Below, one piece after another: positions 9,058 through 53,651 of a stretch of 64,000 nt of DNA. Under the pieces are notes generated by a model that saw only the letters and a list, made by a program, of their open reading frames with translations, did no database searches and was not told the DNA's origin. The DNA is from Lysobacter firmicutimachus (GTDB taxonomy: Bacteria; Pseudomonadota; Gammaproteobacteria; Xanthomonadales; Xanthomonadaceae), in assembly GCF_037027445.1 (NCBI RefSeq), contig NZ_JBANDL010000002.1:930001-994000 (forward strand), given 5' to 3'. Within the stretch, counting starts at the first letter, position 1; each line of letters opens with the position of its first letter. A program made the position numbers and the translations under genes.

Positions 9058-9080
9058 GGCCGGGCAGGAAGGGAGGTGTG

Positions 9081-12215: not shown

Positions 12216-12219
12216 GGCT

Positions 12220-13862: not shown

Positions 13863-13905
13863 GAAGCCCCCGACCGCCCCCCTCGGTCGGGGGCTTCTTC
13901 ATTTC
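13863..13905 (+). terminator. strong terminator in the late leader
   Basis: GAAGCCCCCGACC (13863-13875) pairs perfectly with GGTCGGGGGCTTC (13885-13897), followed by TTCATTTCGG. This 13-bp GC-rich stem lies after the putative late promoter and before the first lysis gene. It would stop late transcription unless polymerase is modified, which suits an antitermination switch. Confidence 0.7.
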
Positions 13906-13989
13906 GGCCGCAACGGCCGCCTTCCCCAGCGCAGCACGCTACCCGCCAACGCGGTGCGGCGAGCGCAGCGCGTTACCCAGGACGATTCC

Positions 13990-15696: not shown

Positions 15697-16157
15697 TGCA
15701 AAAGAACACAGTGGCCACCCCGGTCGAGACCCATGTGCTGATGCTGATGGTGAAACCGGAGGGCGGCGAGAGGACAATGGGACACAAGCGGCCGGAGACC
15801 GGGCCAGCTCCGACGTTGGGCCATGGCGTAGCGAGAGCGGCGCAGGCCGAGACATCGCTCCCCATGTCGGCAGTGACCAGCGACCCGAACTCGTTGCCGA
15901 GTCCGATTGTCGCGACGTGCGTGGAACTCGGCGAGGAACAACTGATCAGTCATGACCTGATCGATCGCTTGGTCAAGCGTCTGCTGCCGGTGCTGGCGCG
16001 CGAGGCGCCGAGCGGCACGGTCACGCCCACCATCAACGCGCTTCCCCCGGTCCTGTCCGCGCAGTCGCCGCTACATTCGGACTTGCAAGACCGAGTGAAG
16101 CGGCAACGTGAGATCAATCGACGGCTGCGTAGCCTTCTGGAGCGGGTCGTCGTTTGA
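15696..16157 (+). CDS. hypothetical protein within the lysis cassette
   Basis: Product of 153 residues. Its ATG overlaps the stop of the spanin gene (TGATG). The N-terminal half is low in structure, the C-terminal half helical, ending in LQDRVKRQREINRRLRSLLER, a basic heptad-like stretch. There is no signal or membrane segment. It lies between the two spanin-like genes, an unusual place; the function is unknown. Confidence 0.55.
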   Translation: MQKNTVATPVETHVLMLMVKPEGGERTMGHKRPETGPAPTLGHGVARAAQAETSLPMSAVTSDPNSLPSPIVATCVELGEEQLISHDLIDRLVKRLLPVLAREAPSGTVTPTINALPPVLSAQSPLHSDLQDRVKRQREINRRLRSLLERVVV

Positions 16158-16456
16158 ACCAGCGCTGTATTGCTTGGGTCGCGCTGGTGATCGCGCTGGC
16201 TGGATGCAGCACCGCTCCGAGCGCCGGGCCAACCCCGGCGCTGTGCGATGCGCGCTGCGTCGCTCCATGTGTCGGTGAGCGCGGCGATACCGGTATCCGC
16301 TGGCAGTCTGAGCCCGACGACCCGGCCGCATTCGATGCGCTCGGTGAGGCGGTCATCCCGGCATTGACCGAGAAGTTGCGGCGGTGCGAACTGCACCGAC
16401 GCGCCTGTGAACAATGCTTGCGGCGCTTACACGAGCGCGGCGTGATCGCACTTTAG
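16154..16456 (+). CDS. outer-membrane spanin lipoprotein (Rz1-like)
   Basis: Product of 100 residues starting at TTG in a TTGA overlap. The N-terminus NQRCIAWVALVIALAGC ends in a lipobox (LAGC), followed by a Pro/Ala/Ser stretch and several cysteines (CDARCVAPC). Small lipoproteins with this sequence character beside an Rz-like gene are outer-membrane spanins. It is longer than most Rz1, with a helical C-terminus. Confidence 0.6.
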   Translation: MNQRCIAWVALVIALAGCSTAPSAGPTPALCDARCVAPCVGERGDTGIRWQSEPDDPAAFDALGEAVIPALTEKLRRCELHRRACEQCLRRLHERGVIAL

Positions 16457-27734: not shown

Positions 27735-28403
27735 ATGAATCTGGCCGCGCTGATCGCGATGGCGCGCGAGCGTCTGGACGACGAGATCGAGCCCTATTTG
27801 GTCGGTGACGCCTCGTTGGCCGGTTGGGCGACGGAAGGCGAGCGGGAGGCGTGTCTGCGGGCACGCCTTTTGTTTGACGACGAGCCCGGTGAAGTGACAA
27901 CCGTGCCGCTCGCGTTGGGACAAGGCGTGTACCGCCTCGACCCGCGCGCACTGTTCGTTGTCTCAGCCAACATTCTTTGGTCGGGCGAGACACGCCTTCA
28001 CGCCCTCGAACTGAAGGGGCTGGATTGGATTCGCGACCAATCGCGGCGCGTGAGTAGCTTCGGAATGCCAGAGGTACTGGCCGATGATGGGCGTGCTCGG
28101 GTGCATGTGTGGCCCCGTCCGGTGCGGCCGGGTCGGCTGCAATTGGCGCTGTACCGCGCACCGATGCGTGCGTTGCTCGATCCTGCGGACGAGCCCGAGA
28201 TCGCCCCCGAGTATCACGATGGGCTGATCGACTGGATGTTGTATCGCGCCTTCCAGATCAAGGACCGCGAAATCGAAGATGTATCGCGCGCAGCTCTCGC
28301 TTTGCGGGACTTTACGTTGCGCTTTGGCGAGCGGCCCACGGCCGATGTGCTGCGCCGGCATCGCGAACGTCGTCGCACTACTACGCGGTACGGCGGTTAC
28401 TGA
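27735..28403 (+). CDS. head-tail adaptor protein
   Basis: Product of 222 residues. LAALIAMARERLDDEIEP, RARLLFDDEPGEV, the strand pair GVYRLDPRALFVV, then VHVWPRPVRPGRLQLALYRAP and EYHDGLIDWMLYRAFQIKD are typical of phage adaptor proteins of podoviruses (a helical bundle with a beta insert). It would bind the portal and start the short tail. Recognition is by motif order. Confidence 0.65.
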   Translation: MNLAALIAMARERLDDEIEPYLVGDASLAGWATEGEREACLRARLLFDDEPGEVTTVPLALGQGVYRLDPRALFVVSANILWSGETRLHALELKGLDWIRDQSRRVSSFGMPEVLADDGRARVHVWPRPVRPGRLQLALYRAPMRALLDPADEPEIAPEYHDGLIDWMLYRAFQIKDREIEDVSRAALALRDFTLRFGERPTADVLRRHRERRRTTTRYGGY

Positions 28404-28405
28404 TC

Positions 28406-29737
28406 GTGAGCGTTCGCGACGACGAACTGGCCCCTCGGGCCGGTTGGCCGCTGGGTATGAACAACCTTGCGGGTGAGACCGCGTTGCCGGTGACCGACTC
28501 CGGGGCGCCGGCCGCAGTGCGCGAGGCCGACAACGTGGATTTCGATGTGGCCGGCAAGCCGCACCGCCGCGATGGCTACACCTTGGCGGTGCCCGGCACA
28601 CGCGTCCATAGCGCGTGGGGCGACGCCACGTGGCCGTGGGGCTTGTTCGTGAGCGGTGACACGTTGACCGCGTTGCACCCAGACGAACGCTCCGAGCCTC
28701 TTGTCGACGGACTTGCGCCCGGTTGGCCAGTGGCCTTTGAGCGGCTCAACGACTCGGTGTTGTGGAGCAACGGCGTTCAGTGCGGTGTGCTTGGCCTGGA
28801 CTTGGAGGCAATGCCGTGGGCGTGCCCCACGCCGGAGCGCGCCCCACGCATCGAGATAGAGGCCGATGGTGCCCTGGATGCGGGGCATTACCAACTCGCG
28901 ATGACGTTTCTGGACGCGCGCGGTCGTGAGTCCGGTGCATCGAACCCGATTGCGTTTGAGATGCCGGCGAACAGCCGGCTGCGGCTTTCGCAGTTGCCGC
29001 AGCCGTTGGATGTCCTGCGCGTGCCTCGTGTTCGCGTGTACCTGAGTTCGGGACTAGATGGCGTCTTCCGTGTCGCGGCGACGCTACCCGTGGGCGTTAC
29101 GGACCTGACGTTGACTGAGCCAGCCTCGGGCCGTGCGTTGGAGACATTGAACCTGCGCCCGCTGCCGGCAGGGCAGGGTGTGTGCGTCCACAACGGTCGC
29201 CAGTTTGTCGCGCGTGGGGCGGAGGTCTGGTTCTCGCCGCCGCTGCGGTACGGGCTTACTCACCCTGGTCGAGATCGCGTGGGCTTCGCTGGGCGCGTGG
29301 ATTTGCTCGCGCCGGTCGCCGATGGCAGCGACGGTGCGGGATTGTTCGTCGCCGACGCCAAACGCACGTATTTCCTGGCCGGACCTTCGCCGGCCGAATG
29401 GCGCCAAGTCATCGCCTATCCCGTAGGCGCTATTCCGGGCGCTTTGATTCGATTGCCGGGCGAGGTGTGGAACCTGCCGACCAAAGCTCCGTTGCCCGTC
29501 TGGATCGCCCGCAATGGCCGCGTCTGCGTCGGATTGCCCGGCGGCCAGGTCATCACGCCGCAACCGCGCGAGGGCTCGCCCGACGCCGTTCTCGATGCCG
29601 CTTCGCGCGGCGCGCTGCTTTACCGCGAACACGGCGGAAAGCAACAGCTCATCACCACCCTGCGCGACGCGCAGCCCCAGTCCCTTGCGGTACGGGACCG
29701 AGCCATCGCGCGGGTCTACCGACACGACGACCCATGA
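28406..29737 (+). CDS. tail structural protein, propeller-like
   Basis: Product of 443 residues from a GTG three bases after the previous stop. NNLAGETALPVTDSGAPAAVREADNVDF-like N-terminal text followed by repeated strands (SAWGDATWPWGLFVSG, RVYLSSGLDGVFRVAATL, AGLFVADAKRTYFLAG, RNGRVCVGLPGGQV) suggests a beta-propeller tail or tail-stabilisation protein, as in other podoviruses. Its stop overlaps the next start by four bases. Confidence 0.55.
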   Translation: MSVRDDELAPRAGWPLGMNNLAGETALPVTDSGAPAAVREADNVDFDVAGKPHRRDGYTLAVPGTRVHSAWGDATWPWGLFVSGDTLTALHPDERSEPLVDGLAPGWPVAFERLNDSVLWSNGVQCGVLGLDLEAMPWACPTPERAPRIEIEADGALDAGHYQLAMTFLDARGRESGASNPIAFEMPANSRLRLSQLPQPLDVLRVPRVRVYLSSGLDGVFRVAATLPVGVTDLTLTEPASGRALETLNLRPLPAGQGVCVHNGRQFVARGAEVWFSPPLRYGLTHPGRDRVGFAGRVDLLAPVADGSDGAGLFVADAKRTYFLAGPSPAEWRQVIAYPVGAIPGALIRLPGEVWNLPTKAPLPVWIARNGRVCVGLPGGQVITPQPREGSPDAVLDAASRGALLYREHGGKQQLITTLRDAQPQSLAVRDRAIARVYRHDDP

Positions 29738-38790: not shown

Positions 38791-40215
38791 GTGGCCGAGA
38801 ACCCCACACCCCCGCGCCGTCGTGCGCCCAATCCCGAGCTGGACACACTCAACACCGAGTACGGCAAGCTGCGAAGCGGCTTCGATGCCGCCTCGCAGCG
38901 CACCCAAACGCTTACCGGCGCACGTAGGCGTTTGGAGGAAACGGCCAGGCCGGAACTGATCGTGCCGCGCAACGAGTTTCAAGCGCCTTATGAAATTTCC
39001 AAGGTGCCCAATGGTGCGCGTGCGCTGCGGCAACTGGACGGCCAGCTGGCGCAAGCGGAGGCTGCAAAGCAAGCCTATGCCGCGCCATTACAGCAGATGG
39101 CCGGCAAGTACCGCGACTTTACGAATCGGACGCAGACACAAACATTGTTGCGCAGCGCTGGGGCTCCGGTCGCCGCGCCATCCCGAGGGTTGCCCGTCGC
39201 CAACGCCGCCCTTGCCCCAGCGTCCACCGACCCAGGCAACCGCAGTGCGAGCGCTGCCTCTGCGCTGCCTAATGCACCGCAGTTGCGGCCCGGTGATGCG
39301 AACACGTTCACGGGCGCGAACGGAATCACGCGCGCCGTACCGGGTCTGTTGAGCTCACAGGCGACGGCGGTGCCTCAACGTACCTTGCCGCCCGCGATGG
39401 TGGCGCCGCCTTCGACCGCGCCGCGCGTCGCCGATACGACCGGCGGTGCGTTGGAAGGCGCGCGCGTCGCCGCACTCCAGACACGCGCGGATGCGGGTTC
39501 GATGGTGACAGATGGCTTTGGTCCCGAGGCGGAATTGATGCGCCGCTTTGAGATTTCACAGGGCAGCTATCAGAACAAGGGGCGGCCGAGTTCGCGCGCC
39601 GCCGCCGCGCAGGCGTTGTTCGGGCAGCTGGGCGCGATGAACCAAGCCAGCGCCAGCGGGCAGCAAGCCGCGAATGGCCTGCTGCAATCCGGAGCCAGCG
39701 CGCAGAACCTCGCCAACGAGGCGTTTGCACAGCGTCGTCAGGACGCTCGCCGGCTGGAATTCGAAAGCGCAGCGGCGCAGCAGCAACAGGCCGTCGAAGG
39801 CCAACGCGTCTTGCGCACTCTCAATACGGCGGACGGCCGAACCGGTGCATTGCGCCAGGACGGCAGCTTCACCCCAATCACCGACGCCGGCGGCCACGCC
39901 GTGCAGGAAGTTGTCAAGGCCGACGCGGGTGGGCAGATCACTCCAAAAGATCAACTGGACTATTTGGGCCAGCAGCAAAAGGCCGTTTTGGACAGTTTGT
40001 CGCTCGATGAAGATCAGCGCGCGCAGCAGCTCGCCGCGTTGGATACGCGCGCGCAGGCGCTATTCGCGCCACCGGTAGCAGCGGCGCCAGCGCCGGCAGC
40101 TGCGACGGGCAAGCCGAGCTTGGATCAGTTTCTCGCACAAGCCCGCAAAGCCAACCCCTCGGCCACCGACGCGCAGTTGACCGCGTTCTATCAGCGTAAG
40201 TACGGCACCCCATGA
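38791..40215 (+). CDS. internal virion protein, ejection-protein-like
   Basis: Product of 474 residues from a GTG three bases after the previous stop. The N-terminal ~115 residues are helical, the middle is Ala/Pro-rich and disordered, and the C-terminal part holds QFLAQARKANPSATDAQL. Its composition and place before the giant protein suggest a protein carried in the head and ejected with DNA. Its stop overlaps the giant start by four bases. Confidence 0.55.
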   Translation: MAENPTPPRRRAPNPELDTLNTEYGKLRSGFDAASQRTQTLTGARRRLEETARPELIVPRNEFQAPYEISKVPNGARALRQLDGQLAQAEAAKQAYAAPLQQMAGKYRDFTNRTQTQTLLRSAGAPVAAPSRGLPVANAALAPASTDPGNRSASAASALPNAPQLRPGDANTFTGANGITRAVPGLLSSQATAVPQRTLPPAMVAPPSTAPRVADTTGGALEGARVAALQTRADAGSMVTDGFGPEAELMRRFEISQGSYQNKGRPSSRAAAAQALFGQLGAMNQASASGQQAANGLLQSGASAQNLANEAFAQRRQDARRLEFESAAAQQQQAVEGQRVLRTLNTADGRTGALRQDGSFTPITDAGGHAVQEVVKADAGGQITPKDQLDYLGQQQKAVLDSLSLDEDQRAQQLAALDTRAQALFAPPVAAAPAPAAATGKPSLDQFLAQARKANPSATDAQLTAFYQRKYGTP

Positions 40216-43200
40216 CCGATTTGATTGACCCCTTCGACACTCCGGCGACAACCGGGGTGGTGGACCCCTTTTCGCCCGCGGCCACACCGCCGACACCGAA
40301 ACAACCCGCAACCGGGTTTCTGAGCGCCGCCGCGCGCGGCTTCAAGCGCAGCCTGCCGGAAACGCAGAGCCTCTTGTACGGTGCCGGCGCGGCGTTGGCC
40401 GGTGCAGTCGGCGCCGACGAGTGGCGCGATAGTACGCTGGCGAACTACCAGCGCATCGAGCGCGAGCAGGTTCAGCCGCTCCAGAACCAAGCCACGTTCA
40501 AAGGCGTGTTGGCGGGCGACGACAGCGCAGGCGAATGGGCCGGCGATGTGCTCGGCAACTTCGGCGGTCAGGCCCTGCAGAGCTTGGCCACGGCGGCGGC
40601 CGGCGCCGCGATCGGCAGCGCCGCACCCGGTGCCGGCACGGCGGCTGGTGCCGTGGGTGGCCTGGTTGCGCGTGGAGCAGCCAAGCGGCTGATTACGGAG
40701 TCGGTCGAGTCGCTGGTCGCCGATCAGATGCGCAAGGGCATCGCACGCGAGGCAGCCGAAGCGGCGGGCAAAGTCGCGCTGCAACGCCGCTTGCAACAGG
40801 TCGGCGGCGCGACCCTGGCAGGATTGGGGTTGAACACTGCGCAGGAAGCCGGCATCGCGTACACCGGCCGCGCCGACGACGCGGCCGAAGCTGGGGAGGG
40901 GCTCGATGCAGGCGACGCCTGGCGCGCGCTGGGCGCAGGCGCTGTCGCGGGCGCGGTGGACAGCGCCGCGGAAGGAATCGGCGTGGGGCGTTTGCTCAAG
41001 GGCGCGTCCAGCAGCCCGCGTGTCACCCGCCGGTTGCTGGCGGGTGCAACGCAAGGCGCGATCACGGAAGGCGGCACTGAAGGCGTCCAGGCCGCATTGG
41101 AGCGTTGGGGCGCACAGCGCGACCTGACCGGCGCCGAGGCGACCGACGACTACATCGAGAACATCGCGGCCGGCGCGTTGGGCGGTGGCGTCATGGGTGC
41201 GGCCGGTGGCGTGCGTCGATCGGTGCCGGAAGGTCAGCCGCCGAACGCGCCCACGCTCGCGCTGCCATCTCCTGTGATTTCGGTCGATGCGTCTGGCGAG
41301 GCCATCACGCCGGCCCAAGCCTTCCAACAACAGCAAGCGGACGTCGATTTCATACGCCGCCGCCAAGCAGTGGATCTCGCGGGCAACGTCAATCCGGCCC
41401 GGCCGTTCCACTCCGCAGCCATCCCTAATGTCGATGCGTTGGTCGATGGCGGGCCAATGGGCGAGTTGGAGCCGTTGTCGGGTGAAAATGGAAAGCTGAG
41501 ACCACAGGCGCTCGCACCGGGCATGCCGCCGCCCCTGGCATTGCCGCCCCCGGACATCACGATCAACGAGGCGGGTGAAGCCGTCACGGCGGCGCAGACG
41601 TTCCAGCAACAGCAGGCGGACGCAGAGTTCGTGCGTAGCCGTCAAAGCACGGGACTCACGGCAGACGTCAATCAGGCGCGCGCGGCGCATCCGGGTGCGG
41701 CCCCCAACGAGAGCGACTCTGCGACCTCGCCGTCGCAGCGCCCCCTGCGGCGGTTGTCTATCCAAGGCGGGCCACGAAAGGGATACCTCAATCCCGCTGC
41801 GTTCGACGGGACGACCGGTCTTCCCGATCCGAACAATGGCCCGTTGTCGCGCGCGATCAATGTCGCCGCAGAACAGGGCGCTCTCCAAGGGGCGACTGAT
41901 AGCGCTCAGACGGAACCCGGCACGATTCCGCCGACGCGAGGCTTTGAGTCGCGTCGCGCGGTGGGCGATTGGCGCGGCTCCGCCGCCCCGCAACGCGACA
42001 CCGCAATGCCGAATCGAGGTGCGGAATCACGCAACGCGCTGCCTGCCGAACCCCCGCGCGCGCCGGTCACTCCCGATCTAGCCACGGTCACGCGCGTGCG
42101 CGAGTATCTGGCCGCCCAAGCCGACCGTGGCCCACTGCCGAAGACCGAGCAGTTGGTGGCGGCATTTGGCTTGAACAAGCGCCAGATGGGCGAACTGCGC
42201 AGCGAAGTGTTGGTGGAGCGTCGCAAGCGAGTGAATGCCGAAGACGCCGCGATACGGGCTACACGCGCGCAGCAGCCGGCAACGTCCGCCGCTCCGTCGA
42301 GCGTACAAGCGGATACGGCTTCCCAGCTTTCGAATAACCCGTCCCCCGCGGCCGTGGCCACGACCGACGAGGACATCCAGACGGTCAGCGCGCCGTCGTC
42401 ATCGCCTGCGACAGACGCCGCCGCGCTTGAGCACCAGGCTCCCGATACTGCGTTGGCGGATGTGCAGGGCGAGAACATGGCGGCAAGCCACGCTTCGGCG
42501 GCGACAGAGCCTGCGAGTGAGATCCCACCAGCGGCATCGATCCCGACCGACTCCAGCTTCGTCACAGCGGACAATAGCGGTGCGACGCAGACCGCTTCGC
42601 CGCCTGATGATACGCCGCCGGCCACGGCGACTGTGCCGGTGGTCGCTGCGCAAGCGCCGAGTAAGACTGTTCGGTCGGAAGCGTCTGCAGGCGCCGTCCC
42701 CGCCTCTTCTGGCGAGTTTGTACGCGTGCGCGATGTATACGGCGATTCGCACCGCGTGCGCGCCGCCGATCTGAACGGCACCCGCGCCATGTTGCCGACT
42801 TATAACGTGGACGGTAAGCGCAGGCTTGGGCGTTCGGTGCTGCGCGATAACCTCGATCAAGACGGCAGTCGCGCGCGGGAAACGTGGAAGGACTTGCGGG
42901 AGATTAGCCGCAAGGGCGCCACGTCTGCGGAAAACGTAGGATTCCGCTCACGTCGCGCTGCGCTGGCGGCCATCGAGCAGCACGGTCAATCGCCCGACGA
43001 CTTCGATTTGGTGTCGCGCGGTGGCGGTCTGGTGGCTGTGCGCAAGCCAACCGGTTCGAACACGCATGCGCCCCCGGCCGTCGCAGCTTCGGCTACGAAA
43101 CCGCGGTACGACAAAGTGGAAGCGGTCACGCCGGCCGGGCCGCCTACAAATGCGCCGGCAGTTTATGATTCGGCGCCGAAGGCCAAGGAGCAGCGCGATG

Positions 43201-46200
43201 GGGAACTACCTGAATCAAGTCATCAAAGCGATCGGCCGGGAGAACTTCCAGGCGCTGAACACGAGCGACCTGCCGATTCTGGACGTGTGGAATCTGCTGG
43301 AGATCTGGTACGTGGGAAGTCCGAGGAAATTTCGGGCACTCGTGGAAAGCGGCGAACTCGTGCCGCTGTTGAAGAAGACACACCGACACGCGTTGGAAGA
43401 CGCCTGCGAGACGCGGCTGACGAACCTGCATCTGACGCCGAGCGAGTGCTTGGAAATGGCCGGGCTGCCGCTGAAGCTGTAGCCGCTCCTGCGGACTTCA
43501 ACCTGACCGACGAACTGGAGTTCCAGGGCGTCGGCGATGTCAAGAAATTCAACCACAACCTCAACGCCATTGCGGTACTGAAGGCCGTTGAGGCACGCGG
43601 CACGCCGGCGACGCCGGAGGAACAATCGGCCCTGGCGCGCTATGTCGGCTGGGGCGGTCTGCCGCAGGCGTTTCAACATCCCACTACCGGAGCGGTCAAG
43701 AAGGGGTGGGAGCAACGCGTGGCCGACCTAGCAGCGGCATTGTCTGCCGAGGAGTTGGCCGCCGCCGGTCGGTCCACGCAAGACGCACACTACACCGCCC
43801 GCAACGTCGTCGATGCGATGTGGAGCGCGGTGGTGCGGCTCGGGTTCACGCACGGCCGTGTGCTGGAGCCGAGCCTGGGCACCGGCAATTTCTTCGGCCG
43901 GATGCCCGCGTCCATACGCGCCGTGACCCAGCGAACTGGCGTGGAGCTGGACCCGATCACCGGGCGCATTGCGCGCCTGCTGTACCCCAGATCTAACGTG
44001 CAGGTTCGTGGCTTCCACGAACTGCGGGTCGTGCCCGAAAGCTTCGATCTTGTCATCGGCAATCCGCCGTTCGGCGCGCAGTCCGTCCATGACCCGCAGT
44101 ACCCGGACCTGTCGCGTTTCAGCATCCACAACTATTTCTTCGCCAAATCGATTATGGCGCTGCGGCCGGGTGGCCTGCTGGCGATGGTGGTGTCCAATTC
44201 GTTCTTGGATGCGAACACGAAGACGACGCGCCAGTGGGTCTCCGAGCGGGCACGATTCCTTGGCGCGATTCGGTTGCCGCAAACCGCGTTCGCCAAGAAC
44301 GCTGGAACCAATGTAACCACCGACATTGTTTTCTTGCAGCGGTTGGCGGAAGGCGTGGAATCCAATCCGGAAGATTGGGTGCCGGTGGAGCAAGCGCGGG
44401 ATGAGCGAGCAGGACAATCGTTCTCGTTGAACCGTTACTACCGCGATCGTCCGCAACGCATGTTGGGTCGCATGGTGTGGAGCACGCACACGACGCATGG
44501 AGCGCAAGGTGCGGTGCTAGCGGCGTGGCAGGGCGTGGACCTGGGCCGTGCTCTGGACGTGGCGGTGTCTAAGTTGCCCAAAGCGGTGTACCTCCCGCCC
44601 GGCATCCCCATCGAGCAGATGGAGCAGGGCGCGCGGGATGCGGAGTCGGCCGCAATGCCTGCCACTGCGCCCGGCGATCACGTCAAGGTCTACGGCTACT
44701 ACGTCGATGCCGATGGCACGTTGCGCCAGCGCCAGCCCGATCACAACGGCGAGAAGACTCAGGTCGACGCCGGTCTTAAGGCCACCGAATCCCAGCGTGT
44801 CCGCGGCATGGTTGGTATTCGCGATGCGATGCGGCGGTTGCTCGCCGCGGAATTGCTCGAGACCAGCACCGACGCCGAAGTCGCGGACCTTCGCGTTGAA
44901 CTGAATCGGGTCTACGACGCGTTCACGAAGGTATCGGGCCTACTGTCACGCGATGCGAATAAGCGCGCCTTCCGATCCGATCCGGACGCGCCGCTGTTGC
45001 TGAGCCTGGAACGCGATTACGACCGGGGTGTGTCGCGCGAAGCCGCGAAGAAGGCCGGTACGACCGCGCGGCCGGAGTCGGCGCGCAAGGCCGACTTGCT
45101 GAGCAAGCGCGTGCAGTACCCGGTCAAGCCGGTGACGAAGGTCAGCGACGCCAAGAGCGCGATGCTCGCCTCGTTGAACGAGCGTGGACGCATCGATATG
45201 GACTTCATGCGCGCGCTGTATCCCAATACGACCGCCGATGATCTCATGCGCGAGTTGGGCGATCTGGCCTACGCGCTCCCAGACGGCACGGTGGAACCGT
45301 CCGACGCGTACCTGTCGGGCAACGTGAAGGCCAAATTGGTGGCGGCGCGCGCAGCAGCCGAGGCAGACCGCAAGTACCGCCGCAACGTTGATGCCCTGGA
45401 GAGGGTGCAGCCGGCCCATGTAGACCCCGCCGACATCTTCGTCCAGCTTGGCACGCCGTGGATTCCCACCAGCGACTACGCCGCGTTCGCAAAGGAGACC
45501 TTTGAAGGCGCTTTGAGTGGGCAGCATGTCGCGGCATTGGGCCAGTGGGTGGTCCAGGTCAAGAGTCAGAACCGCGTGCTCAACCACGACCGATGGGGCA
45601 CCGACCGCATGGGCGCGGAGAAGTTGATGGCCGCGTTGATGATGAATAAGCCGATCACGGTCTATGACGCCAGCAGCTCGCGCGATCAGCCGCCCATCCT
45701 CAACAAAGAGGCGACGGCAGCGGCCCAAGGCAAGGCGGCCGAACTGGTGCAGGCCTTCGGCGACTGGATCTGGAAAGACGCGGACCGACGCGAGCGCCTG
45801 GCTCGGCACTACAACGACACCTTTAACACGAACGTGGAGCGGGGCTTCGATGGCGCCCACATGAGCTTCCCGGGCATGGCGCGCGGCATATTAGCCAATG
45901 GCGAGCTGCGACCGCATCAGTCCGGATTTGCCTACCGCATGATTCAGGACGGCGTGGCCCTGGCCGAGCATGTCGTAGGTGCGGGCAAAACCTACGCATC
46001 GATCGCGGGCGTCATGGAGATGCGTCGCCTGGGCCTGTGGCGAAAGCCGATGATCGTGGTGCCGAACCATCTAGTCGACCAATGGTCGGCTGACTTCCTG
46101 CGGCTCTACCCCGGCGCGAACGTCCTGGCCGCCAGCCGTCAGGACTTTGAACGCGGCAAGCGGCGGCAACTGTTCGGCCGCATCGCGACTGGTGAGTGGG

Positions 46201-49200
46201 ATGCGGTCATTGTCGCGCATTCCTCGTTCGGCTTTATCCCGCTGCCTGCCGACGCAGAGGAGAACATTCTTAAGGCCGAAGTGCAGGAAATCGGCGAAGC
46301 CCTGGATGCGATCCGGGCGAGCGAAGGTAAGAACTCGCTGTCGTTCAAGCAGCTTCAAAAGCGCAAGGACCGCATCATCGAGCGTCTGGACCGCATCTCC
46401 GAGCGCAGCCGCGATGACCTGCTGGACTTCGCGGAGATGGGAGTGGACGCCTTGGTGGTCGATGAGGCGCACGAGTTCAAGAACTTGTTCTTCGTCACCA
46501 CCCAGCGCAACGTCGCCGGCCTGGGCAGTCCCGAGGGCTCCAAGAAGGCCTTCGATCTGTTCGTGAAGATGCGTTATTTGGAAGGGGTCAACCAAGGTAA
46601 GAACCGCGTGTTCCTGACCGGCACCCCCGTGTCGAACACATTGTCGGAGGTCTACCACTTCCAGCGTTACCTTCAGTACGGCGCATTGAGCCAGCTCAAC
46701 GTCACCCAGTTCGACGCGTGGTCGAGCACGTTCGGCGCGATGGTCACCGATTGGGAAATGGATGCGGCGGGGCGGTTCAAAGAGAAGAAGCGCTTCAGCA
46801 AATTCGCGAACCTGCCGGAGCTGCGCACGATGTGGCGACAGTTCGCCGATACCGTAACCCGAGCGGATCTGGTTCGCGACGCGCAGGCGCAAGGCCGTCG
46901 GTTCCCGCTGCCGAAGATCAAGACCGGCGGCCCGCAGAATATCGTGGTAGCCCGCTCGCCGTTGCAAGCGGCATACATCGGCATCCCGGAGCAACAGTTG
47001 GATGGCAACGGTCAGCCGATGCTGGACCCGGAGACGGGGACGCCCAAGGAGCGGTATCCGCGCGATTCGATCATCGGGCGCATGGAGAACATGCCTAAAG
47101 ACCCGAGCATCGACAACCACCTCAAAGCGACGGGCGATGCGCGCAAGGCCGGGTTGGACTATCGCCTAGTCGATCCGTCGGCTCCCGACTTCGCCGAATC
47201 CAAGATCAATGTCGCCGCCGGCAACATCGTGCGGATATGGCAGGGGAACAAAGCCCGGCGTGGCACCCAGTTGGTGTTTTGTGATCTGTCGGTGCCGGCA
47301 TCGGCGCGGGGCCGGGCGACTGAGGCAGCGCAGGCAAAGGGACCGACGTGGTTCGTGCGCAACGATGCCGGGCACTTGGAGCACGTGGATGGGGTGAAGG
47401 TCGCGCTGTCGGCCTGGCCGGAGCGCGTGTTCTTCCTACGCAAGATTCGGAACATCCAACTCATCGTTGATGCGGGCTCGGGCGCAACGGTCGCCCGTGA
47501 GTCGAAACGGCAGGATGTGATTGATCTGGCCAATGCCAGGCTGGCCAAGGATCGTGAGCAGTGGCAACGCAGGTTCGAGACCGAGGCGATTGCCTCTGAG
47601 GATATCGACGCCTATGTCGCGCGCTGGGAGGCTGAGCAAGAAGCCAAGGAAGGCGGTGCCGCCGACGAAGCAGGGGACGCAGAAGCCGATGCATCTCAGG
47701 CGGTGGTCAGCCTGGATGAGCTATTGGCAGACCAAAGCCGGTTCAGCGTCTACGACGATTTGAAGGCGAAGTTGATCGCACAGGGTATCCCCGCTGAACA
47801 AATCGCCTTTATCCACGACTTCGCCACCGACCAGCGCAAGGCAGACCTGTTCGCAAAGGTAAATCGCGGCGACATTCGGGTGCTCATGGGGTCGACGGCG
47901 AAGATGGGCGCGGGCATGAACGTGCAGCGCAAGCTGGTCGCCTTGCACCATCTGGACGCACCTTGGCGGCCGTCCGACCTGGAACAGCGCGAAGGGCGCA
48001 TCGTCCGCCAAGGCAACGAGTTTTACGAGGTCGACCCAGACGGCTTCGAGATCGAGATCCTGCGCTACGCGACCAAGCAGACCTACGACGCGCGGCAATG
48101 GGAGATTCTGGAGCGCAAGGCGCGTGGGATCGAGTCGTTCCGCGCAGGCGATGCCAGCGTGCGCGAAATCGAGGACGTGACCAGCGAGGCCGCCAACGCG
48201 GCCGAGATGAAGGGCTCCGCGTCGGGCAACCCCCTGATTCTGGAATCGGTGCGGTTGCGGTCGGAGGTTCGCAATCTGGAGGCGCAGGAGCGCTCCCATA
48301 AGCGGTCGATCCACCAGATGGAAGCCGTGGTCCGTAAGTTCAATGCCGGCAACCACTACAGCTACACCGACCGGGATCGCACCCGCCGAGCCGTTGACCA
48401 GCTGGACCGTGACGGCCCCTTTGAGCTGACGTTGGGCGAGCGCACCTTTGACGAGAGAAAAGGCGTTAAGGCCGAACCCGTGCTGGCCGCTTTCAAGCGG
48501 GCTACCTCGGCAGACGGCCCGGTTCGCGCCGGCAGCTTCCGAGGGGCAGACATCTGGGTGGATCACCGGGGCGATGCCTTCCGAGTGACCTTGCAGGTAG
48601 GCGACTTCACGGTCGGCCAGACGGAGTTTGGACGGGAGGGCATCACGCCCGGTGGCTACGTCAGTCGCTTGGAAAACATGATTGAGCGTTCTGATCGTCT
48701 GGTCGCCGAGGCGGAAGCTCGGGTTCAGCAGTTTGAGCGCGAGGCCAAGCAGGCCAGCGAGGAAATGACGCGCGGATTTCCGCAGCAGGGCGAACTGGAC
48801 GGCAAGCGCGAGCGGTTCCAGAAGGTCGTGGCCGCGTTGCGGGCGGGCAAGCAGGCGGTTGATGGCGACCCTGCGCCGACAGGGGCTTTCAGCCGTCCGC
48901 GGCGGCCGGTCGAACGTGGGACGCCAGCGGTGGCGGTCCGTCGAGCGATCGCGCCGATCATCGCGGGCTGGTCGCGCGCGGCCCCTCGCGTGATCGTGGT
49001 CGAGACGGGGGGTGACCTGCCAGCGTCCGCTCAATCCCAGGCCGGCTATGCGGACGCGGAAGGCTTTTACGATGGCGAGAGTACGGTTTATCTCGTCGCG
49101 GCCAATCTGACCGACGTCGAGCGAGCCAAAGCCGTTCTGGCCCACGAAGCGATTGGCCACTACGGCATCGAGGCCATCACCGGGCCGGTCCTGTGGGGGC

Positions 49201-52200
49201 AATTGGAATCCACCGTGGACACGATGCGGTCGAGTGGCCGGTATGCGGATTTGTTCGCTGAGATCGATCGCCGCTATCGCGGAGCCAATCGCGGAATCGC
49301 CACCCGTGAGGCGATTGCGGTCATGGCCGAGAAGGGAATCCGTAACAGCGTCATTGATCGTGTGATTGCTGCCCTGCGCCGCTTTCTGCGCGCGCTGGGG
49401 TTCGATGTAGCATTCAGTGCCGCTGAGCTACGGCAACTGATCGCACAGGCGGCGCGATATGTACGCGACGGTGCCCGCCCCCGTGCGGCACGGCTCGCCG
49501 AGGCTCCAGCCTGGTCCAGGCCGGCACCGCGTTTCTACTCGGCGTTCACCGAGTCGGTTCGCAACGCCAAAGGGGCGCCCAAGGTAGCCGCAGCGAGGCA
49601 ATGGCAACAGTGGTTGGATGGCGCGCAACGTCGGGGCGAGTTTCGCCAAGGTGAGCGTGATTGGTCCGGGGTCGACGAGTGGTTGGCCGCCCGCGACAAA
49701 ACCACGCGGCAAGAGTTGGCAGATTACGTAAATTTCAACGAACTGGTATTGCACGAAACCGTGCTGTTCGACCTGTCTAAGCCGCTCGGACCGTCAGAGT
49801 GGGAAAAGGTCAAGGTACCCGCGGCACTGCAAGCCGATGCCGACAAACTGGCTAAGCACGGATTTGAGGTGGTCCGGCTTCGGGATGATCCGCGTCGCTC
49901 CAAACGACTGCAGCACAAAGACAACCCCGGCGTCTTGGTGCCGGCCGATGACTTTTACTGGCTGGTTGACGAAGCGGCGTACCACGCCGCCAGCAACATT
50001 GAGATGCACCACGGCGGCTATCGCAAGCTCAAGGAATTGTTCAAGGAGTATTCGTCGAAGGAGGGTGAGCGCTATCGGGAGCTATTGCTGAGGCTACCGG
50101 TCACCCAGCGACGTCTTACTTCCGGGCAGCAGCAACGAATTCGCGCGCTCCAGCAGCGTCCCTACAATACGTTGTCCAATGTGGAGCGGATTGAACTGGA
50201 CGACGCCGCTGAGCACGAGTATTTCTCAGGCCACTTTCCTCAAGACACCAACATCCTGGCGCACGTGCGGTTTAACGAGCGTGTCGATTCGGAAGGCCGC
50301 TCGGTTTTGTTCATTGAAGAAATTCAGTCGGACTGGCATCAGCAAGGGCGGCGGGAAGGCTATCGGCCGCGCGGCCCCGATACCGCTGAGGAAGCCGAGT
50401 ACCGGTCGCTGGTGCAGCGGCTGCGAGCGAGCGAGGTATTGACGCCGGATGAACAGCGACGGCGCAAGGAACTGCACAAACGCGTTCAACCGGGCTGGGA
50501 TGGCGTGCCAGATGCCCCGATGAAGAACGCCGCCGACTGGTCGCTGCTGGTCTTCAAGCGAATGGTGCGCTGGGCAGTGGATCATGGGATGGATCGGATC
50601 GCCTGGACATCGGGCGCGCAGCAAGCCGCTCGCTATGCGGGAACCGATGCCAACCAAGCGCGTCGCGAGCAGGGCTTGGGTACGTTCTACGACCAGTTGC
50701 TTCCCAGCACGATCAATCAGTGGGCCAAACGCTTCAATGGTCGGGCCGGTCGCCACGTGTTCGGACTGGTCGGTGAGGCGCAGGAAGGCTCTCATGTGAT
50801 CGATCTCACACCGGCCATGCAGGATGCGGCGCGCGCGGGACTGCCGATGTTCAGTCGTCCTGACCCGAATCGTTCGGCTTCTCGGTTGGAGTTGTCGGAC
50901 GAAGGGCGTGAATCCGTGAAGGACTGGCTTGCCAAGCGCGGCGCGGCCAAGTTGACCGATCTCAAGCCGGCGTTGCTGGGCGCGATTCCGATGAACGCCT
51001 TGTCGGACTTCGCGCCAAAAAAAATGCCAGGTATCGGCCACTATCTGGAATTGCGCTATCAGCTGGATGCCTATCGCCATCAGCGCTACGTCAAGACCGA
51101 TGCCATAGCGCAGAAATGGCTCTCCTTTGCAACCGGCGGCGGTGCGCGCGCGCTGGTGCGCCGCGAGCCCACCGCGCAGGCGCGGGCCTTGGCCGACCTG
51201 ATGCACGACAGCACCGTCGCCGGCGTCGATCCCACGTTGAAGGAGGCGACCTACAAGAAAGATCCGGAAAAGGTGCGGATACACCGTGAGCTTCGACGTC
51301 GCTTCGATGCGCTACCGACCGACGGGCAGGAGTTGTATGTGTCGGTGCGCAATGCCTACACCGAGCAAATGAAGCTGATCGAAAAGGCGCTGGCAGAGAA
51401 TTTGGAGCGGGCCATCCAGATCAACCGAAACCGTGCGGACCGTGAGTATGAAGATCGGCTGGAGGAAATCGAAGAAGATCCCGAGCTGGACGATGCTGGG
51501 AAAGCAGAGCAACGGACGCGAGCGGCCCGCCTGCACGCGTCGAGCATTCGCAAAGCCAATCAGCGTGCGAATGCGCAAGTGATCAAGTTGCGGGAGAAAT
51601 TCGAAGCCCAACGCGTTGACGCGCCCTATTTTCCGCTGAAGCGGTTCGGCCGCTATTTCGCCGTGGTCAAGCGGGACGGCCGCATGGTTGGATTTTCCAA
51701 GTTCGAAGGCCGGGCAGAACTGGATGCCTTTGCCGAGAAGATGCGTGAACAAGGGCTGGAAGTCCGGGCCGGTGTAGATGCCGAGAAGACCAGCCTGCGG
51801 CAGTCCATCGATCCAGGCTTTGTCGCCGACATTCAGCAAATCCTTGACGACGCGGGTGCGCCCGATTTCCTGCGAGATGAGGTCTATCAGCTTTATTTGG
51901 AGCGTCTGCCCGACCTGAGCTTGCGCAAGAGCTTTATCCACCGGAAGAAGGTGCCCGGCTATAACGCGGACGCGCTGCGGGCCTTCGGCAGCGCCATGTT
52001 CCATGGAAGCTACCAGCTCGCGCGGTTGAAGTACGCCCTGGAGATGGGTGAGGCGCTAGACGTTGCCGAGCAACAAGCTAAAGAGCACGCACCGATCGGT
52101 GGGATGCTGCTTGTCAACGAGTTGCGCAAGCGCCACGAGTTCATACTCAACCCGAAAGGCGGCGCCGCCGCCCAAATAGCCACCAGCGCCGCCTTCGTGT

Positions 52201-53651
52201 ACCACCTGGGCGCGAACCCGGCGCACTTGTTCCTCAACGCCACTCAAACCTTGATGCTGGGGGTGCCGATCCTTGGTTCGCGATATGGGTTCGGTAAGGC
52301 GTCCAGCGCGCTGACCAAGGCGGCGCAGGACTTCGCGCGCGGCAAGGGCCATATCGAGCGTGCCGCGCTCACTACAGCCGAGCAGAACGCGGCCAAAGCT
52401 TTCGTCGAGATGGGTGTTTGGGAAAAGACCCAGGCCCATGACCTGGCCGGCGTAGGCGACAAGGGGGTCGAGTATTCGGCCGTGCGCCAACGGGTCATGA
52501 GTAAGCTGGGCTGGATATTTCATCAATCCGAGCGCTTCAATCGCGAAGTCACTTCCATGACGGCGTACCGATTAGCCCGAGAGGCCGGGGATACCCATGA
52601 CGCAGCGGTACAGCGAGCGGCCAAACTGACCTACGAGGTGCATTTCGACTACTCCGCGGCGAATCGCCCGCGCTGGATGCAGAGCGACGTGGCCAAGGTG
52701 CTGTTCGTGTTCCGCAACTACAACGTCAACCTGATCTACCGCTTATTCCGGGACGTGCATCAATCCTTCCGGGCCGAGTCGCCGGAGGCGCGGGCCGAAG
52801 CCCGCCGACAACTGGGAGCCATGATGGGGATGTACGCCCTCATGGCTGGCGTTACGGGCGTCCCGCTCTATGGCCTGGCGGTCATGATGGCAGGGTTGTT
52901 TGAGGACGATGATGAGCCGCTCACGGCCGAGCAGCAGTTCGCGCGCGGCACTCGGGAGCTGTTGGGCGAGGATGCGGCGCGCTTGTTGCTCAGTGGTGTG
53001 CCTGGAAGCCTGCTGGGCGTGGACGTGTCCGAACGCATTGGTCTACCGAATCTGTGGTTCCGCAGTCCGGATCGGGAGTTGGAGGGCCGAGACGCCTACT
53101 TCTTCTGGATGGAGCAGGTGCTGGGCGCGGCCATGGCGATCCCTAAGAACCTGTTTACCGGCCTGCAGCAGGTGCATGAGGGGCATATCGAGCGCGGTAT
53201 CGAGACTATGGTGCCGGCGTTCGTTCGCTCGCCCCTGCGCGCGTTGCGTTATGCCGGCGAGGGAGCAACGACACTGGACGGACAGTCCATCACCGACGTA
53301 ACCCCGGCCGGCGTGCTCGCTCAGGCGCTGGGGTTGTCGCCGCTTGCGGTGGCCGAGCAGTACGAGAAGAACAGTGAGTTGAAAGGAGCGGATGCGCGAC
53401 TGAACAAACGTAGGCAACAGCTCATGAATCGCTATTTCATGGCGGTGAAGCAACGGGACAATGACGGAGCGAAGGAGGTGCTGGCCGAAATTCGGTGGTT
53501 CAACCGAGGCAATTCGGCGTACGCGATCACCCGAGAAACGCTGCAACGATCGCAGCAGATGCGCGCTCGTCATGACGCTATGGCGGACCATGGCATTACG
53601 GTCACGCGCAGGATGAGGGCATTAGGCCAGGACGGTGCAACCGAACGATAA
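40212..53651 (+). CDS. 4479-residue polyvalent protein: DNA methylase, helicase, metallopeptidase
   Basis: In order: a Gly/Ala-rich hydrophobic N-terminus (about 35-350); two copies of a ~60-residue repeat (from 351 and 444); a disordered part; an N6-adenine methylase-like domain with LEPSLGTGNFFG (1218-1229) and NPPF (1284-1287); an SNF2-like helicase with GAGKT (1923-1927), DEAH (2084-2087), GTPVSNTL (2137) and QREGRIVRQG (2592-2601); a zinc metallopeptidase with HEAIGH (2978-2983); then LPD-type domains (about 3100-4450), including FIEEIQSDWH. This is the layout of phage polyvalent proteins such as DarB, thought to enter the host with DNA and protect it from restriction. A separate small gene is nested at 43198-43482. 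The end, 53651, closes the clear phage genes. Confidence 0.9.
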   Translation: MTDLIDPFDTPATTGVVDPFSPAATPPTPKQPATGFLSAAARGFKRSLPETQSLLYGAGAALAGAVGADEWRDSTLANYQRIEREQVQPLQNQATFKGVLAGDDSAGEWAGDVLGNFGGQALQSLATAAAGAAIGSAAPGAGTAAGAVGGLVARGAAKRLITESVESLVADQMRKGIAREAAEAAGKVALQRRLQQVGGATLAGLGLNTAQEAGIAYTGRADDAAEAGEGLDAGDAWRALGAGAVAGAVDSAAEGIGVGRLLKGASSSPRVTRRLLAGATQGAITEGGTEGVQAALERWGAQRDLTGAEATDDYIENIAAGALGGGVMGAAGGVRRSVPEGQPPNAPTLALPSPVISVDASGEAITPAQAFQQQQADVDFIRRRQAVDLAGNVNPARPFHSAAIPNVDALVDGGPMGELEPLSGENGKLRPQALAPGMPPPLALPPPDITINEAGEAVTAAQTFQQQQADAEFVRSRQSTGLTADVNQARAAHPGAAPNESDSATSPSQRPLRRLSIQGGPRKGYLNPAAFDGTTGLPDPNNGPLSRAINVAAEQGALQGATDSAQTEPGTIPPTRGFESRRAVGDWRGSAAPQRDTAMPNRGAESRNALPAEPPRAPVTPDLATVTRVREYLAAQADRGPLPKTEQLVAAFGLNKRQMGELRSEVLVERRKRVNAEDAAIRATRAQQPATSAAPSSVQADTASQLSNNPSPAAVATTDEDIQTVSAPSSSPATDAAALEHQAPDTALADVQGENMAASHASAATEPASEIPPAASIPTDSSFVTADNSGATQTASPPDDTPPATATVPVVAAQAPSKTVRSEASAGAVPASSGEFVRVRDVYGDSHRVRAADLNGTRAMLPTYNVDGKRRLGRSVLRDNLDQDGSRARETWKDLREISRKGATSAENVGFRSRRAALAAIEQHGQSPDDFDLVSRGGGLVAVRKPTGSNTHAPPAVAASATKPRYDKVEAVTPAGPPTNAPAVYDSAPKAKEQRDGELPESSHQSDRPGELPGAEHERPADSGRVESAGDLVRGKSEEISGTRGKRRTRAAVEEDTPTRVGRRLRDAADEPASDAERVLGNGRAAAEAVAAPADFNLTDELEFQGVGDVKKFNHNLNAIAVLKAVEARGTPATPEEQSALARYVGWGGLPQAFQHPTTGAVKKGWEQRVADLAAALSAEELAAAGRSTQDAHYTARNVVDAMWSAVVRLGFTHGRVLEPSLGTGNFFGRMPASIRAVTQRTGVELDPITGRIARLLYPRSNVQVRGFHELRVVPESFDLVIGNPPFGAQSVHDPQYPDLSRFSIHNYFFAKSIMALRPGGLLAMVVSNSFLDANTKTTRQWVSERARFLGAIRLPQTAFAKNAGTNVTTDIVFLQRLAEGVESNPEDWVPVEQARDERAGQSFSLNRYYRDRPQRMLGRMVWSTHTTHGAQGAVLAAWQGVDLGRALDVAVSKLPKAVYLPPGIPIEQMEQGARDAESAAMPATAPGDHVKVYGYYVDADGTLRQRQPDHNGEKTQVDAGLKATESQRVRGMVGIRDAMRRLLAAELLETSTDAEVADLRVELNRVYDAFTKVSGLLSRDANKRAFRSDPDAPLLLSLERDYDRGVSREAAKKAGTTARPESARKADLLSKRVQYPVKPVTKVSDAKSAMLASLNERGRIDMDFMRALYPNTTADDLMRELGDLAYALPDGTVEPSDAYLSGNVKAKLVAARAAAEADRKYRRNVDALERVQPAHVDPADIFVQLGTPWIPTSDYAAFAKETFEGALSGQHVAALGQWVVQVKSQNRVLNHDRWGTDRMGAEKLMAALMMNKPITVYDASSSRDQPPILNKEATAAAQGKAAELVQAFGDWIWKDADRRERLARHYNDTFNTNVERGFDGAHMSFPGMARGILANGELRPHQSGFAYRMIQDGVALAEHVVGAGKTYASIAGVMEMRRLGLWRKPMIVVPNHLVDQWSADFLRLYPGANVLAASRQDFERGKRRQLFGRIATGEWDAVIVAHSSFGFIPLPADAEENILKAEVQEIGEALDAIRASEGKNSLSFKQLQKRKDRIIERLDRISERSRDDLLDFAEMGVDALVVDEAHEFKNLFFVTTQRNVAGLGSPEGSKKAFDLFVKMRYLEGVNQGKNRVFLTGTPVSNTLSEVYHFQRYLQYGALSQLNVTQFDAWSSTFGAMVTDWEMDAAGRFKEKKRFSKFANLPELRTMWRQFADTVTRADLVRDAQAQGRRFPLPKIKTGGPQNIVVARSPLQAAYIGIPEQQLDGNGQPMLDPETGTPKERYPRDSIIGRMENMPKDPSIDNHLKATGDARKAGLDYRLVDPSAPDFAESKINVAAGNIVRIWQGNKARRGTQLVFCDLSVPASARGRATEAAQAKGPTWFVRNDAGHLEHVDGVKVALSAWPERVFFLRKIRNIQLIVDAGSGATVARESKRQDVIDLANARLAKDREQWQRRFETEAIASEDIDAYVARWEAEQEAKEGGAADEAGDAEADASQAVVSLDELLADQSRFSVYDDLKAKLIAQGIPAEQIAFIHDFATDQRKADLFAKVNRGDIRVLMGSTAKMGAGMNVQRKLVALHHLDAPWRPSDLEQREGRIVRQGNEFYEVDPDGFEIEILRYATKQTYDARQWEILERKARGIESFRAGDASVREIEDVTSEAANAAEMKGSASGNPLILESVRLRSEVRNLEAQERSHKRSIHQMEAVVRKFNAGNHYSYTDRDRTRRAVDQLDRDGPFELTLGERTFDERKGVKAEPVLAAFKRATSADGPVRAGSFRGADIWVDHRGDAFRVTLQVGDFTVGQTEFGREGITPGGYVSRLENMIERSDRLVAEAEARVQQFEREAKQASEEMTRGFPQQGELDGKRERFQKVVAALRAGKQAVDGDPAPTGAFSRPRRPVERGTPAVAVRRAIAPIIAGWSRAAPRVIVVETGGDLPASAQSQAGYADAEGFYDGESTVYLVAANLTDVERAKAVLAHEAIGHYGIEAITGPVLWGQLESTVDTMRSSGRYADLFAEIDRRYRGANRGIATREAIAVMAEKGIRNSVIDRVIAALRRFLRALGFDVAFSAAELRQLIAQAARYVRDGARPRAARLAEAPAWSRPAPRFYSAFTESVRNAKGAPKVAAARQWQQWLDGAQRRGEFRQGERDWSGVDEWLAARDKTTRQELADYVNFNELVLHETVLFDLSKPLGPSEWEKVKVPAALQADADKLAKHGFEVVRLRDDPRRSKRLQHKDNPGVLVPADDFYWLVDEAAYHAASNIEMHHGGYRKLKELFKEYSSKEGERYRELLLRLPVTQRRLTSGQQQRIRALQQRPYNTLSNVERIELDDAAEHEYFSGHFPQDTNILAHVRFNERVDSEGRSVLFIEEIQSDWHQQGRREGYRPRGPDTAEEAEYRSLVQRLRASEVLTPDEQRRRKELHKRVQPGWDGVPDAPMKNAADWSLLVFKRMVRWAVDHGMDRIAWTSGAQQAARYAGTDANQARREQGLGTFYDQLLPSTINQWAKRFNGRAGRHVFGLVGEAQEGSHVIDLTPAMQDAARAGLPMFSRPDPNRSASRLELSDEGRESVKDWLAKRGAAKLTDLKPALLGAIPMNALSDFAPKKMPGIGHYLELRYQLDAYRHQRYVKTDAIAQKWLSFATGGGARALVRREPTAQARALADLMHDSTVAGVDPTLKEATYKKDPEKVRIHRELRRRFDALPTDGQELYVSVRNAYTEQMKLIEKALAENLERAIQINRNRADREYEDRLEEIEEDPELDDAGKAEQRTRAARLHASSIRKANQRANAQVIKLREKFEAQRVDAPYFPLKRFGRYFAVVKRDGRMVGFSKFEGRAELDAFAEKMREQGLEVRAGVDAEKTSLRQSIDPGFVADIQQILDDAGAPDFLRDEVYQLYLERLPDLSLRKSFIHRKKVPGYNADALRAFGSAMFHGSYQLARLKYALEMGEALDVAEQQAKEHAPIGGMLLVNELRKRHEFILNPKGGAAAQIATSAAFVYHLGANPAHLFLNATQTLMLGVPILGSRYGFGKASSALTKAAQDFARGKGHIERAALTTAEQNAAKAFVEMGVWEKTQAHDLAGVGDKGVEYSAVRQRVMSKLGWIFHQSERFNREVTSMTAYRLAREAGDTHDAAVQRAAKLTYEVHFDYSAANRPRWMQSDVAKVLFVFRNYNVNLIYRLFRDVHQSFRAESPEARAEARRQLGAMMGMYALMAGVTGVPLYGLAVMMAGLFEDDDEPLTAEQQFARGTRELLGEDAARLLLSGVPGSLLGVDVSERIGLPNLWFRSPDRELEGRDAYFFWMEQVLGAAMAIPKNLFTGLQQVHEGHIERGIETMVPAFVRSPLRALRYAGEGATTLDGQSITDVTPAGVLAQALGLSPLAVAEQYEKNSELKGADARLNKRRQQLMNRYFMAVKQRDNDGAKEVLAEIRWFNRGNSAYAITRETLQRSQQMRARHDAMADHGITVTRRMRALGQDGATER
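43198..43482 (+). CDS. 94-residue gene nested in the giant gene (+1 frame)
   Basis: AAGGAG lies eight bases before the ATG. The product starts GNYLNQVIKAIGRENF and contains LPILDVWNLLEIWYVG, LVPLLKKTHRHALEDACE and LTPSECLEMAGLPLKL, a compact helical protein by look. Counted by hand, 77 of 94 codons end in G or C, against 34 of 95 in the giant frame over the same bases, whose translation here is charged and disordered (ELPESSHQSDRPGELP). It falls in the linker before the methylase domain. The family is unknown; it may be regulatory, an immunity-type or a packaging-related protein. Confidence 0.75.
   Translation: MGNYLNQVIKAIGRENFQALNTSDLPILDVWNLLEIWYVGSPRKFRALVESGELVPLLKKTHRHALEDACETRLTNLHLTPSECLEMAGLPLKL

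Follow-up and report, generated by a model that had tools for sequence, protein, structure and literature searches.

How can a complete small gene lie inside a much larger one, in a different reading frame, with the larger frame remaining open across it? The question is raised by a stretch of 64,000 nucleotides from Lysobacter firmicutimachus (NCBI RefSeq assembly GCF_037027445.1, contig NZ_JBANDL010000002.1, positions 930,001 to 994,000; this whole stretch is called the window hereafter), in which an open reading frame (ORF) at 43198..43482 on the + strand is wholly contained in the ORF of a giant polyvalent, DarB-like gene at 40212..53651 on the same strand, in the relative frame +1. A preliminary description, made from the sequence alone, had regarded the small ORF as a nested gene, either overprinted on its host gene or placed by a frame-preserving insertion in the linker that precedes the methylase domain. 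The comparisons described here make it very probable that a real nested gene is present and that it was captured by fusion, a judgement that leaves its function aside.

The nested gene and the frame under selection

The small ORF translates into 94 residues with a single, terminal stop, and the giant frame is free of stops throughout 43198-43482, as had been described. A Shine-Dalgarno sequence of its own, AAGGAG, was likewise confirmed at 43185..43190 (+ strand), 7 nt before the nested ATG. The earlier hand counts of G/C at third codon positions, 77/94 in the nested and 34/95 in the giant frame, match the computed fractions of 0.819 and 0.358, respectively, the entire giant gene having 0.75. 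The residues VILMFYWC make up 39% of the nested product, compared to 13% of the giant reading of the same bases, and the 94-residue product is probably helical. Its gene ends 14 nt upstream of the codons for FNLTDELEFQ, with which the methylase module of the giant protein is taken to begin. The openness and length of such an ORF prove nothing by themselves, and a codon-permutation test on stops reached p<0.05 at only 3 of 77 loci, the window itself scoring p 0.62; it is conservation that carries the case.

A search of 5.8 billion proteins with the nested protein returned six relatives, each of exactly 94 residues and 76-94% identical. In an IMG/VR contig (L002), a nested protein of 77% identity has the same place and frame inside a giant ORF, and in Thermomonas sp. 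S9 (L083) a 44% identical protein, its gene preceded by AGGAGG, occupies the same place in +1 inside an open frame of 2753 codons. The comparison of homologous giant genes proposed in the preliminary description shows the +1 ORF in both of these and a nested +1 ORF in most giants checked. The nested protein had no match among phage records and GTDB contigs, the GTDB search being limited and having missed the Thermomonas relative. Its own genome was the sole match among 198 genomes of the family, the genus, with 19 further genomes searched (20 with its own), gave no other match, and a nested profile, A4, again matched the own genome alone among 369 genomes of the class, the own one included. 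Among natural proteins in the PDB, sequence searches found no relative at a good E-value, and what profile A5 matched best was a designed helical repeat (E 3e-5).

The two frames were compared in several ways. Identity is higher in the nested than in the giant frame in 179 of 180 non-independent pairs of 50-98% nested identity (means 0.644 and 0.478), the alignment having been guided by the nested protein, which favours the nested frame in gapped pairs. A substitution test was made on 15 equal-length pairs, out of 17 chosen, with 485 differences. Nonsynonymous differences in the nested frame numbered 207, compared to 364 expected from random placement, while those in the giant frame numbered 398, compared to 397.3 expected when differences are placed within the same nested class and without stops (z 0.10). 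An apparent excess of giant-frame changes over random placement (398 vs 341) was discarded, since it vanishes once the nested constraint is allowed for and is thus an effect of the nested gene. Between the window and L002, there are 26 nested amino-acid changes where 39.3 are expected (p 0.002), and 39 giant changes where the conditional test expects 41.4 (z -0.9). In Firmicutes pairs, the nested depletion is found in 6/6, and giant changes amount to 217, compared to 217.1 expected.

The position of the changes within the codon tells the same story. In 13 pairs, changes per 100 codons at giant positions 1, 2, and 3 are 20.5, 8.9, and 7.4 inside the nested gene, and 5.8, 3.3, and 33.0 in the region 150-450 nt downstream, so that the most-changed giant codon position moves from 3 downstream to 1 within the nested gene. 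The nested frame is under purifying selection, whereas the giant reading across it behaves as neutral, stops excepted; amino-acid constraint on the outer frame was not detected within the overlap. Purifying selection confined to the giant frame, which had been named beforehand as the outcome that would speak against a nested gene, was looked for, and the reverse was found. Because six homologues have identical length, L002 and L083 share place and frame, and the nested frame is under purifying selection, the ORF is more than a chance opening, and the proposal of a nested gene is upheld on the same grounds.

The segment of the giant gene upstream of the nested gene can be hardly alignable where the nested genes are >90% identical and the methylase is also nearly unchanged (L005/L007, L046/L063, L004/L009, and L017/L025); it is alignable in L044/L059, L021/L032, and L032/L089. 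The nested gene may travel with the methylase, with an exchange boundary at the nested gene, although a fast-changing disordered segment would look alike.

Distribution of the arrangement and openness of the giant frame

Related loci were collected mainly from the methylase side. Of the 162 loci assembled at first, 160 were retrieved through the piece of the methylase module at 43482-44600, which excludes the nested gene. Near the methylase start, a +1 ORF of at least 60 codons was found in 89 of the 91 loci L002-L092 (76 distinct); the other two, L028 and L086, had none in the first search window and have one further upstream. The +1 ORFs near the methylase in L043 and L077 were not credible by eye and were excluded from the nested set before counting. 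With the first nested profile, made from eight nested proteins, further weak matches appeared (E up to 10); every one on the + strand is in +1 to the methylase frame, and a lone weak match lies on the minus strand (L091, E 1.5).

A six-frame scan of 180 loci, using the profiles A3, A4, and A5 and a profile of Firmicutes TnpV proteins, produced 167 matches, 166 of them in +1 and 6 of the 167 outside the methylase-frame ORF; these frame counts over all loci are partly so by construction, because the profile seeds were drawn from +1 ORFs. When duplicates are left aside and only loci that contain the start of their giant ORF are counted, 138 remain, and a homologous nested ORF was found in 128 of these; the set includes the window and phage records retrieved through nested matches. 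Among methylase-fetched loci, 115 of 122 have a nested match. The counts that escape the seed bias, in which near-relatives of seeds nevertheless remain because removal was confined to identical 300-base stretches, are 69 of 79 methylase-fetched loci without a seed in A3-A5 (matches to A3-A5 only) and 58 of 65 without a seed in any profile; all 95 A3-A5 matches in non-seed methylase-fetched loci are in +1. Searches from the nested side led to 19 loci, mostly in already-known contigs, all 19 lying in a spanning giant frame, and such searches with A4 and with L087 found nothing. The predicted arrangement is far wider than the window and is present in most related giant genes checked. It recurs, with the same relative frame, both in phages that infect Gram-negative bacteria and in elements of Firmicutes, as judged from their sequences. 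The prevalence was measured among relatives of one methylase module and should be taken to apply to these.

In the 15 annotated records viewed that have a nested ORF (14 phages, including JC1, USP_25, and PBC5, the last with two records), the nested ORF is never annotated as a gene of its own; in PBC5 it forms the final part of the gene upstream. In L049, L054, and L063, a single giant gene holds a tandem pair of QTL-type nested ORFs, both in +1. In Pseudomonas phage Itty13 (L171, NC_070969), three large opposite-strand ORFs are annotated over the giant frame at 4905-16163, probably by misannotation.

The giant frame has been kept open across these genes. Within 75 nested genes, giant-frame stops number 0, compared to 90.9 predicted by shuffling nested synonymous codons. 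The T that would make such a stop at a nested third position occurs in 0 of 1590 places, while T occupies 387 of 3186 other third positions; ten Firmicutes nested genes give 0 of 229, and 74 of 580 elsewhere. The loci had not been chosen for an open giant frame. One locus, L053, was kept in the 75-gene count and dropped from the later stop and Shine-Dalgarno analysis. The codon-permutation test for the lack of stops in +1, mentioned above, was set aside, its sum (0 vs 70) being biased by candidates that had been picked as stop-free, and was replaced by the reverse test and the substitution tests. The avoidance of stops indicates that the giant frame is still read through the predicted nested gene.

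The third frame holds 458 stops across 74 nested genes, none of which is stop-free in it. Since there are stops in every gene checked, a captured gene could be crossed in one frame only. One base back from the nested frame, a stop requires T at a nested third position and would be easily avoided, which could account for the fixed +1 frame.

Family, origin, and rival explanations

The small proteins of the Firmicutes loci belong to a known family. All six that were compared with Pfam TnpV (PF14198) match it at 135-152 bits, for a cut-off of 27; five of these are nested, and one (L043:13983) overlaps the end of a giant gene. In the Firmicutes loci, the nested match ends ~1.1-4.1 kb, mostly 2.2-3.1 kb, before the methylase. 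In four loci (L043 13983, L126 13896, L154 13986, and L098 5287), the start of TnpV overlaps the last 17 nt of the giant ORF, an overlap that possibly represents a stage before capture. Of 20 phage or viral nested proteins scanned, including those of the window and L083, three (L045, L075, and L087) pass the TnpV cut-off, and a further nine give matches that fall short of it, with E up to 1. Nested proteins and TnpV share the pattern P..Y..L...G.L...L. In profile comparisons, the Firmicutes TnpV profile is linked to the nested groups MAQ (95.9%), NRY (93.5%), S45 (91.6%), and PHX (87%); the NLQ group is linked to MAQ (97%) and NRY (97%), and the window's group, XAN, to MAQ (86%) and QTL (81%), with 33% for NLQ. 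From its place, frame, and size and from this indirect profile link, it is a reasonable inference that the window protein is in the TnpV group. A search for TnpV in the genome that holds the window gave no match, but neither did the control genomes. Two other nested proteins, of L039 and L032, matched PHROG 938, labelled 'endolysin'; the matches lie at the end of the profile and were attributed to its nested portion rather than to any endolysin domain.

TnpV also occurs outside giant genes. It was matched in 36 plasmid records, and in six loci that were viewed, it lies in a long spanning frame in two and does not in four. The spanning frame of L182, a Monoglobus plasmid, is in frame with an annotated SNF2 gene; in L185, a Cohnella plasmid, the frame is long and spans TnpV. 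The PLSDB gene table, which is incomplete, lists the nested TnpV of both, with an SNF2 gene that starts only after it in L182 and no giant gene for L185.

We propose that two coding segments fused into one giant polyvalent gene around a small TnpV-like gene that lay between them, the fused frame running straight through the captured gene. Ribosomes would initiate internally on the giant transcript, so that the 94-residue product is made alongside the giant protein; the latter would cross the region as a flexible linker. The small gene thus looks older than the giant reading across it, and its history would be one of capture rather than birth in place. Of the two branches left open by the preliminary description, insertion into the linker with the frame kept fits better, because the nested frame is the selected one, TnpV relatives stand alone, and the giant frame is a neutral, stop-free linker.

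The other branch, in which a linker of the giant gene existed first and a young small gene arose on it by de novo overprinting, is hardly probable. Many viral proteins have arisen by overprinting, according to the part of a review available to us (PMC8227390); here, selection acts on the nested frame and was not detected on the giant one, the nested proteins are conserved between diverse loci where the giant reading is a polar linker, and TnpV relatives exist without a spanning frame or overlapping the end of a giant ORF. Capture fits better than overprinting because TnpV also occurs alone. It is scarcely credible, moreover, that the giant frame stands open by accident, the giant and nested readings being parts of separate genes. 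The lack of amino-acid constraint on the giant frame over the nested gene agrees with such an accident, as do the two plasmid records, with their incomplete table, in which the SNF2 gene follows the nested TnpV or the giant gene is missing; yet stop-making T is absent from all 1590 places, T standing in 12% of the others, and in Firmicutes from all 229. JC1's giant protein is also reported in virions with 51 unique peptides, which are not shown to span the linker in the portion of PMC9144972 that was accessible.

A further possibility, that ribosomes pass from the giant frame into +1 through programmed frameshifting and the nested sequence is the C-terminal domain of the upstream protein, is highly unlikely. 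It draws on Sinorhizobium phage PBC5 (L163/L169), in which, just upstream of 9001, the polyvalent part enters the nested and not the methylase frame, the upstream part reading straight into it over 2197 codons; in addition, the PHROG 938 profile, whose length equals that of the PBC5 upstream protein, matches nested proteins in its final part. However, PBC5, in its GenBank and RefSeq copies, is the one phage that shows this change, for which an error in sequencing or an isolated mutation might be responsible, and the nested starts have an ATG and a Shine-Dalgarno sequence. The nested gene of the window has its own ribosome-binding site and start codon, and a Shine-Dalgarno sequence of at least 4 nt precedes 56 of 57 starts judged homologous, compared to 8.4% of 5423 control ATGs taken from these giants in the frame of the nested starts, although the starts were first selected partly by Shine-Dalgarno strength, which inflates their count somewhat. 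Room for a shift is present at 55 of 74 loci. At the other 19, the +1 frame is closed at most 5 codons before the ATG (at most 3 in 9 of them), leaving little room, and frameshifting is therefore disfavoured as a general route.

Capture of a conserved gene remains the preferred explanation, and several points weigh against it in addition to the seed bias and the selection of starts already mentioned. Loci and pairs are not phylogenetically independent, and the per-locus stop tests are weak. Ten of the 138 loci lack a nested match (L024, L053, L080, L098, L102, L138, L155, L176, L178, and P1 darB), although a plausible nested ORF is still visible by eye in L024, L080, and L176 (phage JC1). The window protein matches no family in Pfam, PHROGs, or NCBIfam, and the Firmicutes TnpV profile gives 37% with NLQ, 2.3% with XAN, the window's group, 1.1% with DKQ, 0.6% with S18, 0.4% with S80, and 0.2% with QTL. 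With 1.4% for QTL and MAQ and 10% for QTL and NLQ, a single family for all nested groups is not established.

The giant gene and a possible role of the small protein

The giant gene encodes 4479 residues and is identified by Pfam matches as DarB-like, having an adenine methylase followed by an SNF2 helicase, together with LPD39, all above cut-off. All of its features lie on the + strand. The upstream segment, from EFVRVRDVYG (residue 835; 42714..43050, approximate), also precedes the nested gene in L002, and the segment ahead of the nested gene in L083 differs from it. The linker that crosses the nested gene (residues 996-1090, 43197..43481) is polar and stop-free, with no amino-acid constraint seen. 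The methylase module is taken to start with FNLTDELEFQ (residue 1096; 43497..44600), a region that looks LPD36-like by its position and a GWGG motif when compared with the description in the accessible part of PMC5512222. Within it lies a match to an Eco57I methylase (residues 1275-1347, 44034..44252), which is followed by the SNF2-related domain SNF2-rel_dom (residues 1922-2091, 45975..46484), Helicase_C (residues 2528-2601, 47793..48014), and large polyvalent protein associated domain 39, LPD39 (residues 3574-3756, 50931..51479). Genes for the terminase large subunit, portal, and head-closure protein (Hc3) lie upstream at 18437-19879, 19889-21967, and 28109-29737, respectively, and the giant gene is assigned to a prophage because of them.

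Phage genes nested in another frame are known from Rz1, which lies in Rz, and from B and E of phiX174. The gene described here resembles them as a complete inner gene in a different frame with its own start; it differs from them in that the inner gene is conserved and apparently captured and the outer frame is without detectable constraint. The methylase, SNF2 helicase, and LPD39 of the giant gene are those of the DarB-like polyvalent proteins (Iyer et al. 2017, PMC5512222). The words 'overlapping', 'TnpV', and 'frameshift' are absent from the main text of that paper so far as it was available, and its passages with 'nested' and 'reading frame' concern other matters. The open-access literature on TnpV, DarB, and nested or overlapping genes, among the matches listed and in the parts of it available, yielded no description of a gene nested in a giant one in this manner. 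TnpV itself, of which the Firmicutes nested proteins are members, is known from the sources available in part as a gene of transposons and mobilisable elements, unlike here, where it lies inside another gene in +1.

What the small protein does can be addressed by analogy. As a tentative suggestion, it might be a dedicated partner of the methylase-helicase module, which it could load, escort, or hold in check, in a task like that of Ulx. In phage P1, Ulx is listed as 'Aids DarB localization' in the available part of PMC9024508, and that of PMC12810830 describes an ordered incorporation of the Dar proteins. The P1 darB-ulx pair is similar in that a small gene stands beside a methylase-helicase gene, and different in that Ulx is encoded by a separate downstream gene and P1 darB has no nested match. 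Ulx was rejected as a homologue of the nested proteins, homology not being detectable, which speaks against the analogy; homologues of DdrA, DdrB, Hdf, and Ulx were not identified in the phage group of JC1, according to the portion of PMC9144972 at hand. Moreover, TnpV is also found without a giant gene, and conjugative elements lack a virion, so that the partner role is a guess and would need to reach beyond packaging. Stated more generally, a small partner of the TnpV superfamily could, with equally limited confidence, be obligatory inside the genes for methylase-helicase polyvalent effectors of phages and conjugative elements.

An alternative role as a recombination directionality or DNA-binding factor, resembling TnpV of Tn4451 and lambda Xis and unrelated to the giant protein, is rather unlikely. 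A function of the Tn4451 TnpV in excision has been postulated from its likeness to lambda Xis, as given in the accessible part of PMC3158075, and some plasmid records show a recombinase or helix-turn-helix gene in the vicinity of annotated TnpV. The frequent location inside methylase-helicase giants, however, suggests a link with the giant protein, and several nested products are acidic, with isoelectric points of 4.5-5.2 in 6 of the 12 examined (6.3 for the window's and 9.0 for that of L083).

The nested genes form a conserved group of small genes that was apparently overlooked because its members lie inside larger genes. They provide a clean natural case of a fusion gene that overprints a captured gene, with one frame constrained and the other neutral yet open, and this pair of frames can be measured in many loci. 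Should the small protein prove to be a partner of these giant anti-restriction effectors, it may supply a component so far missing from a system that is known largely through P1. Nesting would then bind the partner permanently to the methylase module even as the remaining giant protein is reshuffled, and the giant linker would be the partner gene translated with a shift of one base.

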